64,000 nt of DNA from Acidilobaceae archaeon (GTDB lineage: Archaea > Thermoproteota > Thermoprotei_A > Sulfolobales > Acidilobaceae), in assembly GCA_027080775.1 (NCBI GenBank), contig JALWPV010000011.1:1-64000 (forward strand), in the 5' to 3' direction. A program made the position numbers and the translations under genes. Below are positions 306 through 9,511 of the stretch, piece by piece (the first letter of the stretch is position 1; every line of letters starts with the position of its first letter). The notes under the pieces are model-generated. The model was not told where the DNA came from. It searched no databases and saw only the letters and a list, made by a program, of their open reading frames with translations.

Positions 306-2909
306 GTGGGGGACCCGGCTCTGCCTAGCAGGAGGGCCCTAGCGCTATCAATCGCCTGTGTGGCGCTGCTACTCGTGGCTACGGCATTCGCTAGCGTGGG
401 CTCGGGCCTCTCCCAGTTCCAGCTACCCAGGTACCGGGCCGTGAGCGTTAGGCTGACCCCCTACTATGGGGGGGCGGATGCGGCCCTGGTATTCAGGGTC
501 GACGACTTCGTCGTCGACGGGGCCCTCCTGCACAGGCTCCCTGACAGCATAGGCGAGCCCCATGAGTGGTTCGAGAACTATGAGTTGGACCTCATAGACT
601 ACGTCACCACCCGGTACCCCTGGCTCAGGCTGACGGTCGGGGTCATAACGTACTGCGGGGGCGATTGCGAGGGCACCTGGAGGCTATACGAAACCCTCGT
701 CAAGCGTTACGGCTGGGAAGTAGCCTCCCACTCCAGGTACCACGTCAGGCCCCCCAGGAGCCCCAGCGATTACCTAGGCTCCCTGAGCGATATTGAGGAG
801 AGAATACCGGGCTACAGGGTCTTAACTTACATAGAGCCATTCGGGAGGGCATCCCAGAGCGAGCTAGAGCAGCTGCGCGCCCATGGAGTAAGGGTCTTCT
901 GCACCACAACACTGGAGCCCCCCCTGAGGCCCGACGTGGAGGGCGGCGTGCTCAAGCTGGGGTTCACCGTTAAGGCCTCCGACAAGTTCCCCTGGCACAA
1001 GTGGCTCTCGGCCAGCATAAAGCTCGCCGAGGCCGATGGCGGAGTCGTCGTGGTATACACCCACGCAACCTCCTACGACTGGAGGAGCCCCTCCGACCTA
1101 CTCAAGGCCGTAGACTACATAGCTAGAGAGGCCGACTCCCCGAGGATATGGATAACCACGCCGGGCGAGCTATACTCGTACCTCGAGGAGCTGGGGTCCG
1201 CTAGTGTGAGTGCCTACTATGAGGGCAGCACGCTCCACATCAGGCTGGAGGGGGCCCCGGCCCACGGCGCCTGGAGGGTGCCACTGACTATCGCCGTTGA
1301 CGTGGGTGGAGCCAGGGTCGTGGGGGTCGCCGTGGATGGGAGGCCCATCCACGCGGTAGACGCCACGCACCTCGGCAAGCCCAGGGTAGGCTACTTCATG
1401 CGGGGCGGGGTCTTGTACATAAGCGCCGTGCCCCCCGCCAACATAACCGTGACCCTATCCCCAGCGAGCCCCGCGACCATAGTCATCCCGCATAGCATAG
1501 ACTCCGGCTTCAGGGGGCTCGACAGGGCTAGGCTCGCAGCCTACCTCCTCTGGCTCCCCTTCACCGTGATCCTGGTCTCAGCGTACCGCAGGGGCCGCGT
1601 GGTCCGAATCTACAAGTACAACCTGAGGAAGAGGAGCTGCCGGAGAGCTAGGGAGGCCCGCTACGCGGTAGTAATCCCTGCTAGGAACTCGGAGGATACG
1701 ATAGGCGACGTGCTGAGGGCCGCCCTGGCGCAGAGCGTCAGGCCCGTAGCTGTGGCCCTGCTAGACGACGCCTCAAGCGATGGGACCGTAGCCGAAGCCC
1801 TCAGGGTGCTCGAGGAGGCCGGAGCGGTCCTCGAGTGCCAGCGGAGCGAGGGGGCCCGTAGGATCCTATGCTACAGGCTCCCCTGGGGCGCCCCATTCTA
1901 CATGGTCTCTTTCGGCTCGCACACCGGTAAGTCCAGGATGATAAACTACGCCCTCGAGAAGGTGCTCTCCGAGGTTGACTATGACTACCTGCTGATACTG
2001 GACTCCGACACCCTCCTCGAGAGGGACTACGCCGAGAGGCTGCTAGCCAACATGCTGGGCGGCCCGAGGTACTCGGCCACCAACGGCCTCCTACTCCTCT
2101 GGAGGCCTGACCGACGAGGCCTTGCGGCGAGACTCATAGCGGGGGCGTTCAGGAACGTCGGCACAGCCATTCTAACACTGGGTATCAGGATGATAGAGTC
2201 GGCCGCCGGGGCCCTAGGGGGCCTCAATGGAGCTGCCCTCATGATAGAGAGGGGGCTCCTCGAGAGGCTGGGGGGCCTGCCGACGGGCACTACGGCCGAG
2301 GACGCCGAGGTCACCTGGAGGGCCATACTGGATGGTTACAGGGTCGGCGTCACACCCACGGCCGTGGCCTACACCGTGGACCCGGGGAGCCTGGGCTCCC
2401 TGGCTAGGAAGACGCTCAGGATCGCCACCGGCACCATAGAGTCGATGCTGAGGGTCGCCCCCAAGCTGGCGGCTAGGCGCAGGTTCAAGGCGCTCTTCTC
2501 AGTCCTCTATAACTCCCTCGGCGGGATCCCCCTAGCGCTCTCAGTCATACACCTAGCGCTCGTCGTCGCGCTCGCCTCCCTGGGCCTTCACCCTCAGGGC
2601 CTGGCCCTGAAGCTCGCCCTCCTCCTACCCTACACGCCGCTCTCCCTGGCGCTCCTACCGCTCCTAGAGAGCCCCCTGGGGTACCTAGCCTTCATGTACG
2701 CCATCGGCATGGGTGAGGCCTCGCTCCTCCTCGTAAGCCTAGCCCTAATCTATTACGGGGAGCCGAGGGTCTCGAGGAGGCTCCTAGCGGCGCTCGCCTA
2801 CGTACCCCTCTTCCCAGCGGTGCTCTGGCTCAACACGCTCATCCTGCTGGCCGCGATACCGAGGGCCCTCTACCACTACGCCACAGGCGTGCACCCCGAC
2901 AAGTGGTGA
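306..2909 (+). CDS. NodB-like deacetylase fused to a GT2 glycosyltransferase, membrane-anchored
   Basis: 867 residues with two enzymatic modules. Residues 1-35 are a signal/anchor helix. Residues about 60-290 look like a NodB-type polysaccharide deacetylase: VDD at 65-67 and the HxxxH of SHSRYH near 141-146 match its metal-binding motifs. A membrane helix near 410 leads to a GT2 glycosyltransferase starting with YAVVIPARNSEDTI (about 455), with DDASSDGT, the DSD metal motif and TAEDAEVTWRA. Several membrane helices follow to the C-terminus. Inferred topology: deacetylase outside, transferase inside, so the protein could make and deacetylate a surface polysaccharide. GTG start; the next gene overlaps its stop. 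Substrate unknown. Confidence 0.75.
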   Translation: MGDPALPSRRALALSIACVALLLVATAFASVGSGLSQFQLPRYRAVSVRLTPYYGGADAALVFRVDDFVVDGALLHRLPDSIGEPHEWFENYELDLIDYVTTRYPWLRLTVGVITYCGGDCEGTWRLYETLVKRYGWEVASHSRYHVRPPRSPSDYLGSLSDIEERIPGYRVLTYIEPFGRASQSELEQLRAHGVRVFCTTTLEPPLRPDVEGGVLKLGFTVKASDKFPWHKWLSASIKLAEADGGVVVVYTHATSYDWRSPSDLLKAVDYIAREADSPRIWITTPGELYSYLEELGSASVSAYYEGSTLHIRLEGAPAHGAWRVPLTIAVDVGGARVVGVAVDGRPIHAVDATHLGKPRVGYFMRGGVLYISAVPPANITVTLSPASPATIVIPHSIDSGFRGLDRARLAAYLLWLPFTVILVSAYRRGRVVRIYKYNLRKRSCRRAREARYAVVIPARNSEDTIGDVLRAALAQSVRPVAVALLDDASSDGTVAEALRVLEEAGAVLECQRSEGARRILCYRLPWGAPFYMVSFGSHTGKSRMINYALEKVLSEVDYDYLLILDSDTLLERDYAERLLANMLGGPRYSATNGLLLLWRPDRRGLAARLIAGAFRNVGTAILTLGIRMIESAAGALGGLNGAALMIERGLLERLGGLPTGTTAEDAEVTWRAILDGYRVGVTPTAVAYTVDPGSLGSLARKTLRIATGTIESMLRVAPKLAARRRFKALFSVLYNSLGGIPLALSVIHLALVVALASLGLHPQGLALKLALLLPYTPLSLALLPLLESPLGYLAFMYAIGMGEASLLLVSLALIYYGEPRVSRRLLAALAYVPLFPAVLWLNTLILLAAIPRALYHYATGVHPDKW

Positions 2910-3391
2910 TCCAAGCCTTGCCCAGCAGCCTGCTCTACGTGTACCTCCTATCACTCCTGCCCTCGGTAGAGGGGCGCTACGCCGTGCTAGCCGGGAGAGC
3001 CCTAGGGGTGAGCCTCTGGGCCGCACTACTAGCCTCTGCCCTAGGCGTGGCTACCCTCTCCCTCGTATTGCCCCGTGTCCTCTACCTCGTCGACACGCTC
3101 GTTGAATGGATGGCCGCTAGTGGGTGGCGCTCCCTGGGGAGGATGGCCTCACTCTATAAGAGATACGTCGAGAGAGCGCGGGAGAGGGCGGCCCCATACA
3201 TTGAGAGGTACGGGCTCCCGGGGCTCGTGGTGTTCGTCGCCATACCCCTACCCGCCACCGGCGTCTGGACGGGGGCCCTGGCGGCCTACCTGCTGGGCAT
3301 CGAGAAGGGTAGGGCCACCGCGGCCCTACTCCTCGGGGGGCTCCTCTCGATCGCCTTCATGCTGGTGCCCGCGTACCTCGCCGCCGGCTAG
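2903..3391 (+). CDS. COG2426 small multidrug-export-like membrane protein
   Basis: 162 residues, strongly hydrophobic. The segment RYGLPGLVVFVAIPLPATG followed by WTGALAA is the family hallmark (KYG.~GL..FVaiPlPgTGaWtGal) of the putative small multi-drug export proteins (PF06695). About four to five membrane segments, with a charged amphipathic stretch near 85-110. GTG at 2903 or 2906 overlaps the stop of the glycosyltransferase gene, so the two are probably cotranscribed. Its stop overlaps that of the convergent ABC ATPase gene by four bases. The transported substrate is not established for the family. Confidence 0.7.
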   Translation: MVIQALPSSLLYVYLLSLLPSVEGRYAVLAGRALGVSLWAALLASALGVATLSLVLPRVLYLVDTLVEWMAASGWRSLGRMASLYKRYVERARERAAPYIERYGLPGLVVFVAIPLPATGVWTGALAAYLLGIEKGRATAALLLGGLLSIAFMLVPAYLAAG

Positions 3392-8878: not shown

Positions 8879-8904
8879 ATGCATGAGGATTGCTCTATCT
8901 CGGG

Positions 8905-8918
8905 CTAGCTTTAAGAGA
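8905..8918 (+). promoter_or_regulatory. TATA-like box for the DUF433 gene
   Basis: AGCTTTAAGAG lies about 40 bases before the GTG at 8953, leaving a short leader that contains the GGGGAGATG ribosome-binding stretch. Confidence 0.35.
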
Positions 8919-8952
8919 GCTGGGTAGGTCAAATAACTCCTGGGGAGATGGT

Positions 8953-9189
8953 GTGGAGCGGAAGTTTAAATGGATTGAAATAAATCCGAATGTTTGCCAT
9001 GGTAAACCGGTCTTCAAGGGTACAAGAGTCCTGGTGGCTGATGTTCTTGAAATGATTGCGTCTGGTATGAGTATCGAGGAGATTTTAGAGGAGTATCCCC
9101 AGCTAAACAAGGAGATGATTCTTGAGGCAATAGCTCTTGCAGCCGAGCTCCTTAGGAGGGAGAGACGTGTCATACCAATTCCTGCTTGA
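8953..9189 (+). CDS. DUF433 antitoxin
   Basis: 79 residues from GTG 8953, chosen because GGGGAGATG precedes it and because the upstream in-frame residues are unlike the family. IEINPNVCHGKPVFKGTRV then VADVLEMIASGMSIEEILEEY is the DUF433 (PF04255) signature, a small HTH-type antitoxin fold. It overlaps the DUF5615 toxin gene by 23 bases, the standard partner arrangement, so it should neutralise that toxin and repress the pair. Middle cassette of the tRNA-Val island. Confidence 0.85.
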   Translation: MERKFKWIEINPNVCHGKPVFKGTRVLVADVLEMIASGMSIEEILEEYPQLNKEMILEAIALAAELLRRERRVIPIPA

Positions 9190-9511
9190 CGAAAACGTAC
9201 CCAGAACAATTTTTAAGCTACTAAGACAGAAAGGCTTCTACGCTGAATATGTACCTCAAGGTGTTGACGATAGAACAGTTATTGAAATAGCTAGAGAAAA
9301 GAACTTGATATTAATTACAAGAGATAGCGATTTTGCCGACGAGTTGAGGTATCCACCAGACTCTCATCCAGGTATAATTGTGCTCCGCATCCACCCTTCA
9401 CTACCAAGAGTAATGGCTGAGCGCTTAGCATTCGTGCTGGAAAACGTCAAAGAGTTAAGTGGAAGGATTACAATAGTATATAATGATAGAATAGAGATTA
9501 TTGGAAGATAG
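9167..9511 (+). CDS. DUF5615 PIN-like toxin
   Basis: 114 residues from GTG 9167, preceded by GGAGGGAGAGA; a longer in-frame extension lies inside the antitoxin gene and is unlikely. FLLDENVPRTIFKLLRQKG, DDRTVIEIAREKNLILITRD, then SDFADEL carry the acidic residues (DEN, D, TRDSDF) of the DUF5615/Mut7-C-like PIN fold (PF18480), predicted ribonuclease toxins. The gene is intact and coupled to its DUF433 antitoxin, so this cassette is probably functional. Confidence 0.82.
   Translation: MSYQFLLDENVPRTIFKLLRQKGFYAEYVPQGVDDRTVIEIAREKNLILITRDSDFADELRYPPDSHPGIIVLRIHPSLPRVMAERLAFVLENVKELSGRITIVYNDRIEIIGR

Follow-up and report, generated by a model that had tools for sequence, protein, structure and literature searches.

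The window analysed here is the first 64,000 nucleotides of the forward strand of contig JALWPV010000011.1 (C11), from an Acidilobaceae archaeon (GenBank assembly GCA_027080775.1; genome G000, 1.78 Mb, 99.9% complete). Near its start, at positions 306–2909 on the + strand, lies a single gene whose predicted product joins a NodB-like deacetylase of carbohydrate esterase family 4 (CE4) to a family 2 glycosyltransferase (GT2). The open reading frame (ORF) has no internal stops, and the fusion gene is genuine and under purifying selection: the same fused ORF recurs in another genome of the genus, G002 (record L002; an Acidilobaceae metagenome-assembled genome), where the protein is 96% identical and the ratio of non-synonymous to synonymous substitution rates (dN/dS) is 0.14 over 866 codons. 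A chance frame or an assembly artefact is ruled out by this comparison and by the presence of fused genes in five genomes of two genera (G000, G002, G003, G014 and G022), which are homologues of the kind that a preliminary description of this stretch, made from its letters, had suggested looking for.

From the N-terminus the modules are an anchor helix, the CE4/NodB-fold deacetylase, a beta-rich domain, a weak transmembrane (TM) helix, the GT2 domain and about four further TM helices. The sequence of anchor, deacetylase, helix, GT2 and exit helices agrees with the preliminary description, which had overlooked the beta-rich domain. A full-length AlphaFold model has a predicted local distance difference test score (pLDDT) of 77.7 and a predicted template modelling score (pTM) of 0.51. 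Residues are numbered in the full protein, in which each position is that of the deacetylase domain plus 38 (D28, D29, H104, H108 and H215 of the domain are D66, D67, H142, H146 and H253). A3 denotes an alignment of nine deacetylase sequences from genera g1 and g2 and family f8, from which two degenerate copies of genus g12 were excluded; L055 is an outgroup. The features of the gene are as follows.

306–2909, + strand: fusion gene, GTG start, 867 amino acids.
336–392, + strand: first TM helix or signal anchor, residues 11–29 (hydropathy 2.54; helix 8–34 in the model, partly at low confidence).
432–1199, + strand: CE4/NodB-fold deacetylase domain, residues ~43–298 (AlphaFold pLDDT 84; structure matches 1z7a, Z 19.9, and 3qbu, Z 19.4; Foldseek match 3rxz, E 2.7e-8).
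501–506, + strand: D66-D67 of motif 1, which by homology supply the catalytic base and a metal ligand (invariant in the nine rows of A3 and in L055).
729–743, + strand: H142-S-R-Y-H146, motif 2, putative metal ligands (both His invariant in A3 and L055; aligned to HTxxH of a NodB-type protein).
828–845, + strand: Y-I-E-P178-F-G180, equivalent of motif 3 without the CE4 Arg (alignments of A3, the NodB-type protein and L055; motif as defined in PMC5855634).
1056–1082, + strand: Y-T-H253-A-T-S-Y-D-W of motif 5, whose His is by homology the catalytic acid (H and DW invariant in A3 and L055; His aligned to the NodB-type protein).
1200–1484, + strand: beta-rich accessory domain, residues ~299–393 (strands in the model; the aligned ranges of 4dwe and of PelA, 9cgy, extend into it).
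1527–1583, + strand: second TM helix, residues 408–426 (weak hydropathy, 1.69; net charge of +6 in the next 15 residues; low model confidence).
1650–2435, + strand: GT2 domain of GT-A fold, residues ~449–710 (PF13632, 2.8e-14; PF13641, 4e-13; PF00535, 3.2e-11; Z 28.7 to PcManGT, 26.8 to BcsA, 25.7 to the chitin synthase Chs1 and 25.1 to hyaluronan synthase).
1998–2012, + strand: L-D566-S-D568-T, DxD motif (invariant in 7/7).
2295–2309, + strand: A-E665-D666-A-E, (T)ED motif (E and D invariant in 7/7; aligned to ED of BcsA).
2406–2432, + strand: R-K-T-L-R705-I-A-T-G709, at the place of QxxRW (BcsA alignment and motif counts in the family).
2532–2858, + strand: C-terminal membrane region of about four TM helices, residues 743–851 (hydropathy and model; 740–789 at low confidence).

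The deacetylase is divergent in sequence, and its predicted structure is a CE4/NodB fold. No Pfam or NCBIfam family matches residues 1–398 of the window protein at E≤1, and the cut-off of PF01522 is not reached; PF01522 is matched at E≤0.1 by six of the nine A3 members, best by the G042 copy (E 7.1e-5; 23.2 bits against a cut-off of 23.1), and not by the copies of the window and of G003. The sole PF01522 match of the host genome is a separate 253-residue protein on contig C28 and was set aside. A PDB search with the sequence profile of the domain gave no credible matches. An AlphaFold model built on the nine-row alignment (pTM 0.86) has the NodB fold of CE4, and its VIA matches include 1z7a (232 residues, 3.0 Å), the PuuE allantoinase 3cl6 (Z 19.6), 3qbu, 4dwe (Z 19.4 over 287 residues) and the Pel modification enzyme PelA (9cgy, Z 15.5 over 278 residues). 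Polysaccharide deacetylases such as 3rxz are also the best Foldseek matches in the PDB, and with peptidoglycan deacetylases they are among the top structure matches of both programs, many of them titled putative. Unrelated-looking glycoside hydrolase (GH) chains are interspersed in the Foldseek list from rank 7 onward; those of GH30, GH39 and GH57 in the fold searches were put down to the shared barrel.

Profile–profile comparison links the family to L056, an archaeal protein of NodB type (single-comparison E 2.4e-8), in register at the HTxxH, P-F-G and His motifs, and to the CE4-type protein L055, which has PF01522 at cut-off (267 columns, E 1.7e-10). D66, D67, H142, H146, P178, G180 and H253 are invariant in all nine rows of A3, so that at the sequence level the Asp-His-His metal triad of CE4 appears to be present together with the Asp base and the His acid. 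The metal ligands foreseen in the preliminary description are thus conserved in the window protein; in relatives of genus g12, described below, they are lost. L055 itself (G447), in which a CE4-type domain is combined with PKD repeats and a portion of the same beta-domain, perhaps represents a broader family to which this deacetylase belongs; past a masked stretch, its frame ends in what resembles an unrelated protein.

The Pfam match of the second module to PF13632 and the CE4/NodB-fold model of the first bear out the earlier proposal that one polypeptide carries both. The transferase has the GT-A fold and the DxD and (T)ED motifs of processive membrane GT2 synthases. Its best NCBIfam match is TIGR03937 (PgaC/IcaA; 75.4 bits) and its top Foldseek match is hyaluronan synthase (E 4e-13); BcsA, chitin synthase and hyaluronan synthase occupy, by their best chains, the places after the first in the VIA comparison of the full-length model. 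A sequence profile of the whole transferase ranks chondroitin synthase (7e-12) and cellulose synthase (2e-11) above PcManGT of Pyrobaculum calidifontis (1.5e-9), and a profile of the acceptor region places cellulose synthase (8e-10) above PcManGT (2e-5). The latter profile is colinear with bacterial cellulose synthases, whose QxxRW aligns with [KR]xxR[IV] of the archaeal family. The family's transferases end in a basic residue followed by an invariant Trp (DKW, NKW, PRW, SKW or SRW; residues 866–867 in the window protein), and in G003 the RW is followed by six more residues.

The two domains are likely on opposite sides of the membrane, the deacetylase outside and the transferase inside, and not on the same side, in line with the preliminary description. 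By hydropathy the C-terminal helices lie at residues 743–761, 766–784, 797–815 and 833–851, and a further hydropathic segment (325–343) is a strand in the model. The net charge of the 15 residues after the second TM helix exceeds the charge before it in 11 of the 13 family transferases and equals it in the other two, which under the positive-inside rule for membrane proteins argues that the transferase is cytosolic. The deacetylases of G017 and G042, which are encoded as separate proteins, have a single N-terminal anchor and no further helix by hydropathy, which argues for a deacetylase held outside; and since GT2 enzymes require cytosolic nucleotide sugars, the fused chain is expected to span the membrane between its modules. 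We call this topology likely rather than demonstrated because the helix that precedes the transferase is weakly hydrophobic.

A query with the deacetylase domain matches 12 of 214 genomes of the order, or 11 after removal of G100, whose match (L048) is a V-ATPase by eye. Six of these genomes are in family f1 (three in g1, one in g2, two in g12) and five in family f8. All 11 encode a transferase of the family, either fused to the deacetylase or as its neighbour on the same strand. The split pairs occupy seven loci in six genomes with the two genes side by side, the deacetylase being first in G017 and the transferase first in six loci of five genomes (G042, G052, G113, G114 and, twice, G118); the second G017 copy (C41 and C6) and the G118:C15 locus are cut by contig ends. 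This partnership, maintained although gene order differs, points to a functional pair. Of the 16 genomes (out of 214) that a transferase profile matches at E≤1e-20, 12 score at least 256 bits and the other four at most 113; the only one of the 12 in which no deacetylase was found is G001, whose transferase is cut by a contig end. In 398 genomes of the phylum the deacetylase profile gave 12 matches, with G000, G014, G042 and G052 the only clear members; among weak matches, L055 is a genuine relative, L056 and L057 resemble other NodB-type proteins by eye, and L058, L059 and L061 are by eye unrelated or uncertain. The transferase search of the phylum added one close relative, in G453 (417 bits); this gene (L100/L106, G453:C55) is flanked by what look by eye like genes for Gfo/Idh-type dehydrogenases. 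Viral contigs gave no match, and plasmids gave one tblastn match, to the transferase region only and lacking annotation.

The fused copies cluster together in the trees of both domains, with support of 100/100 for the transferase (four fused, five split and one outgroup row, without G001, G002, G113 and both G118 copies) and 94/90 for the deacetylase (five fused, six split and one outgroup row); the latter falls just short of the star of the tree program, and the g12 and outgroup branches are very long. This is most simply read as a single fusion event in the g1/g12 lineage, with fission as the alternative.

The two g12 fusions (G014, L006:1525-2580; G022, L007:1498-2556) have transferases 45 and 44% identical to that of the window protein and deacetylase domains 28 and 26% identical. 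These domains no longer have the second Asp, the two metal-ligand His or the His of motif 5, and are retained about 40 residues shorter, with a dN/dS of 0.124 between the two species that is rough, dS being saturated. By these residues the g12 domain would be a natural CE4-type pseudoenzyme under purifying selection.

We consider it an even proposition that the fusion is a surface-glycan synthase and deacetylase resembling MatB of Streptomyces, with a divergent transferase. The GT-A domain, in the cytosol, would attach a sugar, probably N-acetylated, to a glycan that is growing or anchored to a lipid, and UDP-N-acetylglucosamine would be the simplest donor; the product would be passed on or held at the membrane by the C-terminal helices; and the CE4-fold domain, facing outward on its two tethering helices, would strip N-acetyl groups, with a metal held by D67, H142 and H146, D66 acting as base and H253 as acid. 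Like the preliminary description, we infer a glucosamine sugar and a polymeric product.

A number of observations weigh against this proposal. In the transferase, QxxRW is absent from all 13 family members, which have [KR]xxR[IV]xxG instead (a count that leaves out the truncated G001 copy; in G453, more distant, the motif is KxxRM or RxxRM). As a control, the frame could be located by a simple pattern in 10 of 21 further GT2 loci, and seven of these 10 have QxxRW. The 75.4 bits for TIGR03937 are far below its equivalog cut-off of 422.3, and the top VIA match to the full-length model is PcManGT (6yv7, 315 residues, 20% identity). In the deacetylase, the Arg of motif 3 (RxPY) is absent from A3 and L055, which have Y-I-x-P-x-G, and a conserved motif 4, DxxD(W/Y), was not found in them between motifs 3 and 5; CE4 deacetylases of poly-N-acetylglucosamine (PNAG) are described as likewise deviating in motifs 3 and 4 (PMC5855634). 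The second TM helix has a hydropathy below 1.5 in six of the 13 family transferases (one cut by a contig end), and pLDDT is below 50 across much of its surroundings. Deacetylation would be dispensable in g12, the fused domain there being without metal ligands, and the transferase can probably exist without a deacetylase, since none was detected in G453, a genome 85% complete that carries a relative of the transferase. A GH5 gene lies directly upstream of the deacetylase in both G017 copies (PF00150, 2.7e-15), and as synthase operons often include a hydrolase this lends weak support to the synthase reading; GH5 homologues, however, occur in 14 of the 214 genomes (counting one weak match, in G175, and one with stops, in G006), of which only three have the deacetylase, so that the link is that of one lineage. 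With 11 GH5-bearing genomes in which no deacetylase was found, GH5 was set aside as a component of the system.

We retain, as rather unlikely, a non-processive enzyme like PcManGT that transfers one or a few sugars onto a lipid carrier or membrane lipid for N-glycans or glycolipids, with the outward deacetylase editing the flipped product; it is kept in view by the absence of QxxRW, by the match to PcManGT, by the inactivated g12 domain and by the G453 transferase that stands alone. Such editing would follow the logic of HpnI/HpnK and ArnD; profiles of HpnI and GT21 score on the transferase, ArnD is among the structural matches of the CE4 domain, and PcManGT is the only PDB match under E 0.01 in a single-sequence search. 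The absence of QxxRW also removes much of the ground for the description of this GT2 as processive-looking. Against a PcManGT-like enzyme stand the higher ranking of polymerases (chondroitin and cellulose synthases) in the profile searches and the first place of hyaluronan synthase in Foldseek, as well as the three TM helices reported for PcManGT (PMC10569066), compared with about five by hydropathy in the transferase part of the fusion; PcManGT is presented as acting in N-glycan synthesis in a title among the references of PMC8993221, a source that reports its predicted mannosyltransferase function to be without experimental confirmation.

The other alternatives concern the deacetylase and its product. 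Acetylxylan esterases (7fbw, E 2.6e-6) and PuuE allantoinase are among its structure matches, and with the GH5 neighbour in G017 they would fit an O-deacetylase (acetylxylan-esterase type) or a different amide hydrolase whose target is a surface glycan not built on glucosamine, the pair making an O-acetylated or plain beta-glycan that GH5 trims; we think this improbable, as the titles of most top matches name deacetylases of polysaccharide or peptidoglycan, many as putative. We regard it as quite improbable that the module serves chiefly as a structural domain for exit or binding, of minor catalytic importance, with the essential function supplied by the transferase. The g12 species do keep a ligand-less domain at a dN/dS of about 0.12 (dS saturated), and between G000 and G002 conservation is stronger in the transferase (dN/dS 0.068) than in the deacetylase (0.113) or the beta-domain (0.483); between G000 and G003, however, it is the deacetylase that is more conserved (62% identity and 0.286, against 54% and 0.386), and its catalytic-type residues are invariant in the nine g1, g2 and f8 sequences. 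Lastly, it is an unlikely reading that the fusion is a separate archaeal aminopolysaccharide machine, a polymerase of cellulose-synthase fold lacking the QxxRW clamp that was fused independently of MatB to an outward CE4 domain and makes a chitosan- or PNAG-like polymer, with the dead g12 domain serving as a chain guide or binding domain.

The gene next to the fusion overlaps it by seven bases and was weighed as a partner:

2903–3391, + strand: ORF for a small membrane protein of PF06695 (Sm_multidrug_ex), a possible partner of the fusion.

It adjoins the fusion only in G000 and G002 and was not seen downstream in G003, G014, G022 or G017 (frames by eye), and a role like that of MatA or IcaD was set aside on account of this restriction. 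The GH5 gene of G000 is on contig C65, away from the fusion, and is 51% identical (169/332) to that of G017. GlmS is encoded in the genome of the window, a general feature; the pair in G042 has GlmS-type and hexapeptide-transferase genes nearby, and none turned up in 13 kb around the pair in G052. Split pairs lie near pantothenate genes in two families (L029, L030, L031, L071 and L072), with panB and, in f8, also panE; these were identified by Pfam in G052 and by eye elsewhere, and no mechanism was seen. The gene adjoining GH5 encodes topoisomerase VI subunit A with an intein containing a LAGLIDADG-like domain (L115:4165-6612, G000:C65; L116:4131-5822, G002). Elsewhere in the window, two short overlapping ORFs at 8890–9511 resemble by eye a DUF433/PIN-like toxin–antitoxin pair.

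Crenarchaeal surface polymers are poorly linked to genes, and a fused, presumably heat-stable synthase and deacetylase offers a single gene for expression and assay, which would test whether GT2 polymerases manage without QxxRW; the g12 species provide a natural control with a ligand-less deacetylase. Were the reading as a separate archaeal machine true, archaea of hot environments would gain a chitosan- or PNAG-like surface polymer. Glucosamine and N-acetylglucosamine are reported as minor sugars of Sulfolobus acidocaldarius biofilm, where the authors could not tell cellular deacetylation from acid hydrolysis as the source of the glucosamine (PMC9549778).

Among known systems, the transferases BcsA, hyaluronan synthase and chitin synthase resemble that of the fusion in combining a GT-A fold with membrane helices and the DxD and ED motifs. 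Hyaluronan and chitin synthases carry QxxRW, as does BcsA, where the archaeal family has [KR]xxR[IV]. PcManGT is a 345-residue chain with no deacetylase part. For the other module, PelA and BACOVA_03992 (4dwe) have a CE4-like fold whose alignment extends into the accessory domain of the fusion, and their titles name no transferase. The IcaA/IcaB and PgaC/PgaB systems, which make and de-N-acetylate PNAG, combine a GT2 synthase with a CE4-type deacetylase outside the cytosol, as the archaeal pair appears to do, in separate proteins rather than one chain; the CE4 domain of PNAG deacetylases is described as circularly permuted (PMC5855634).

The closest parallel is MatB of Streptomyces lividans and S. 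coelicolor (SLI_3306/SCO2962), described as an extracellular CE4 domain, a TM helix and an intracellular GT2 domain that with MatA makes PNAG (PMC5972031, PMC4391728), and this bacterial precedent weakens the earlier view that such modules are usually separate. The order predicted for the archaeal chain is the same, with the CE4 domain N-terminal and outside, a TM helix, and the GT2 domain C-terminal and inside. The MatB transferase is PgaC-like by BLAST according to its paper, whereas the archaeal one scores 75 bits against the PgaC cut-off of 422 and lacks QxxRW; and the window's CE4 domain, compared with MatB by description, is too divergent for PF01522 and is trailed by a beta-domain. The split relatives in archaea suggest that the archaeal fusion arose independently of MatB, as far as a comparison by description allows. 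No archaeal CE4–GT2 fusion was noticed in searches of an open-licence paper library. The CE4–GT2 architecture is thus already known from bacteria, and what is new is its archaeal example, together with the divergent CE4 fold, the transferase without QxxRW, the split relatives in strict partnership and the natural loss of the deacetylase site.

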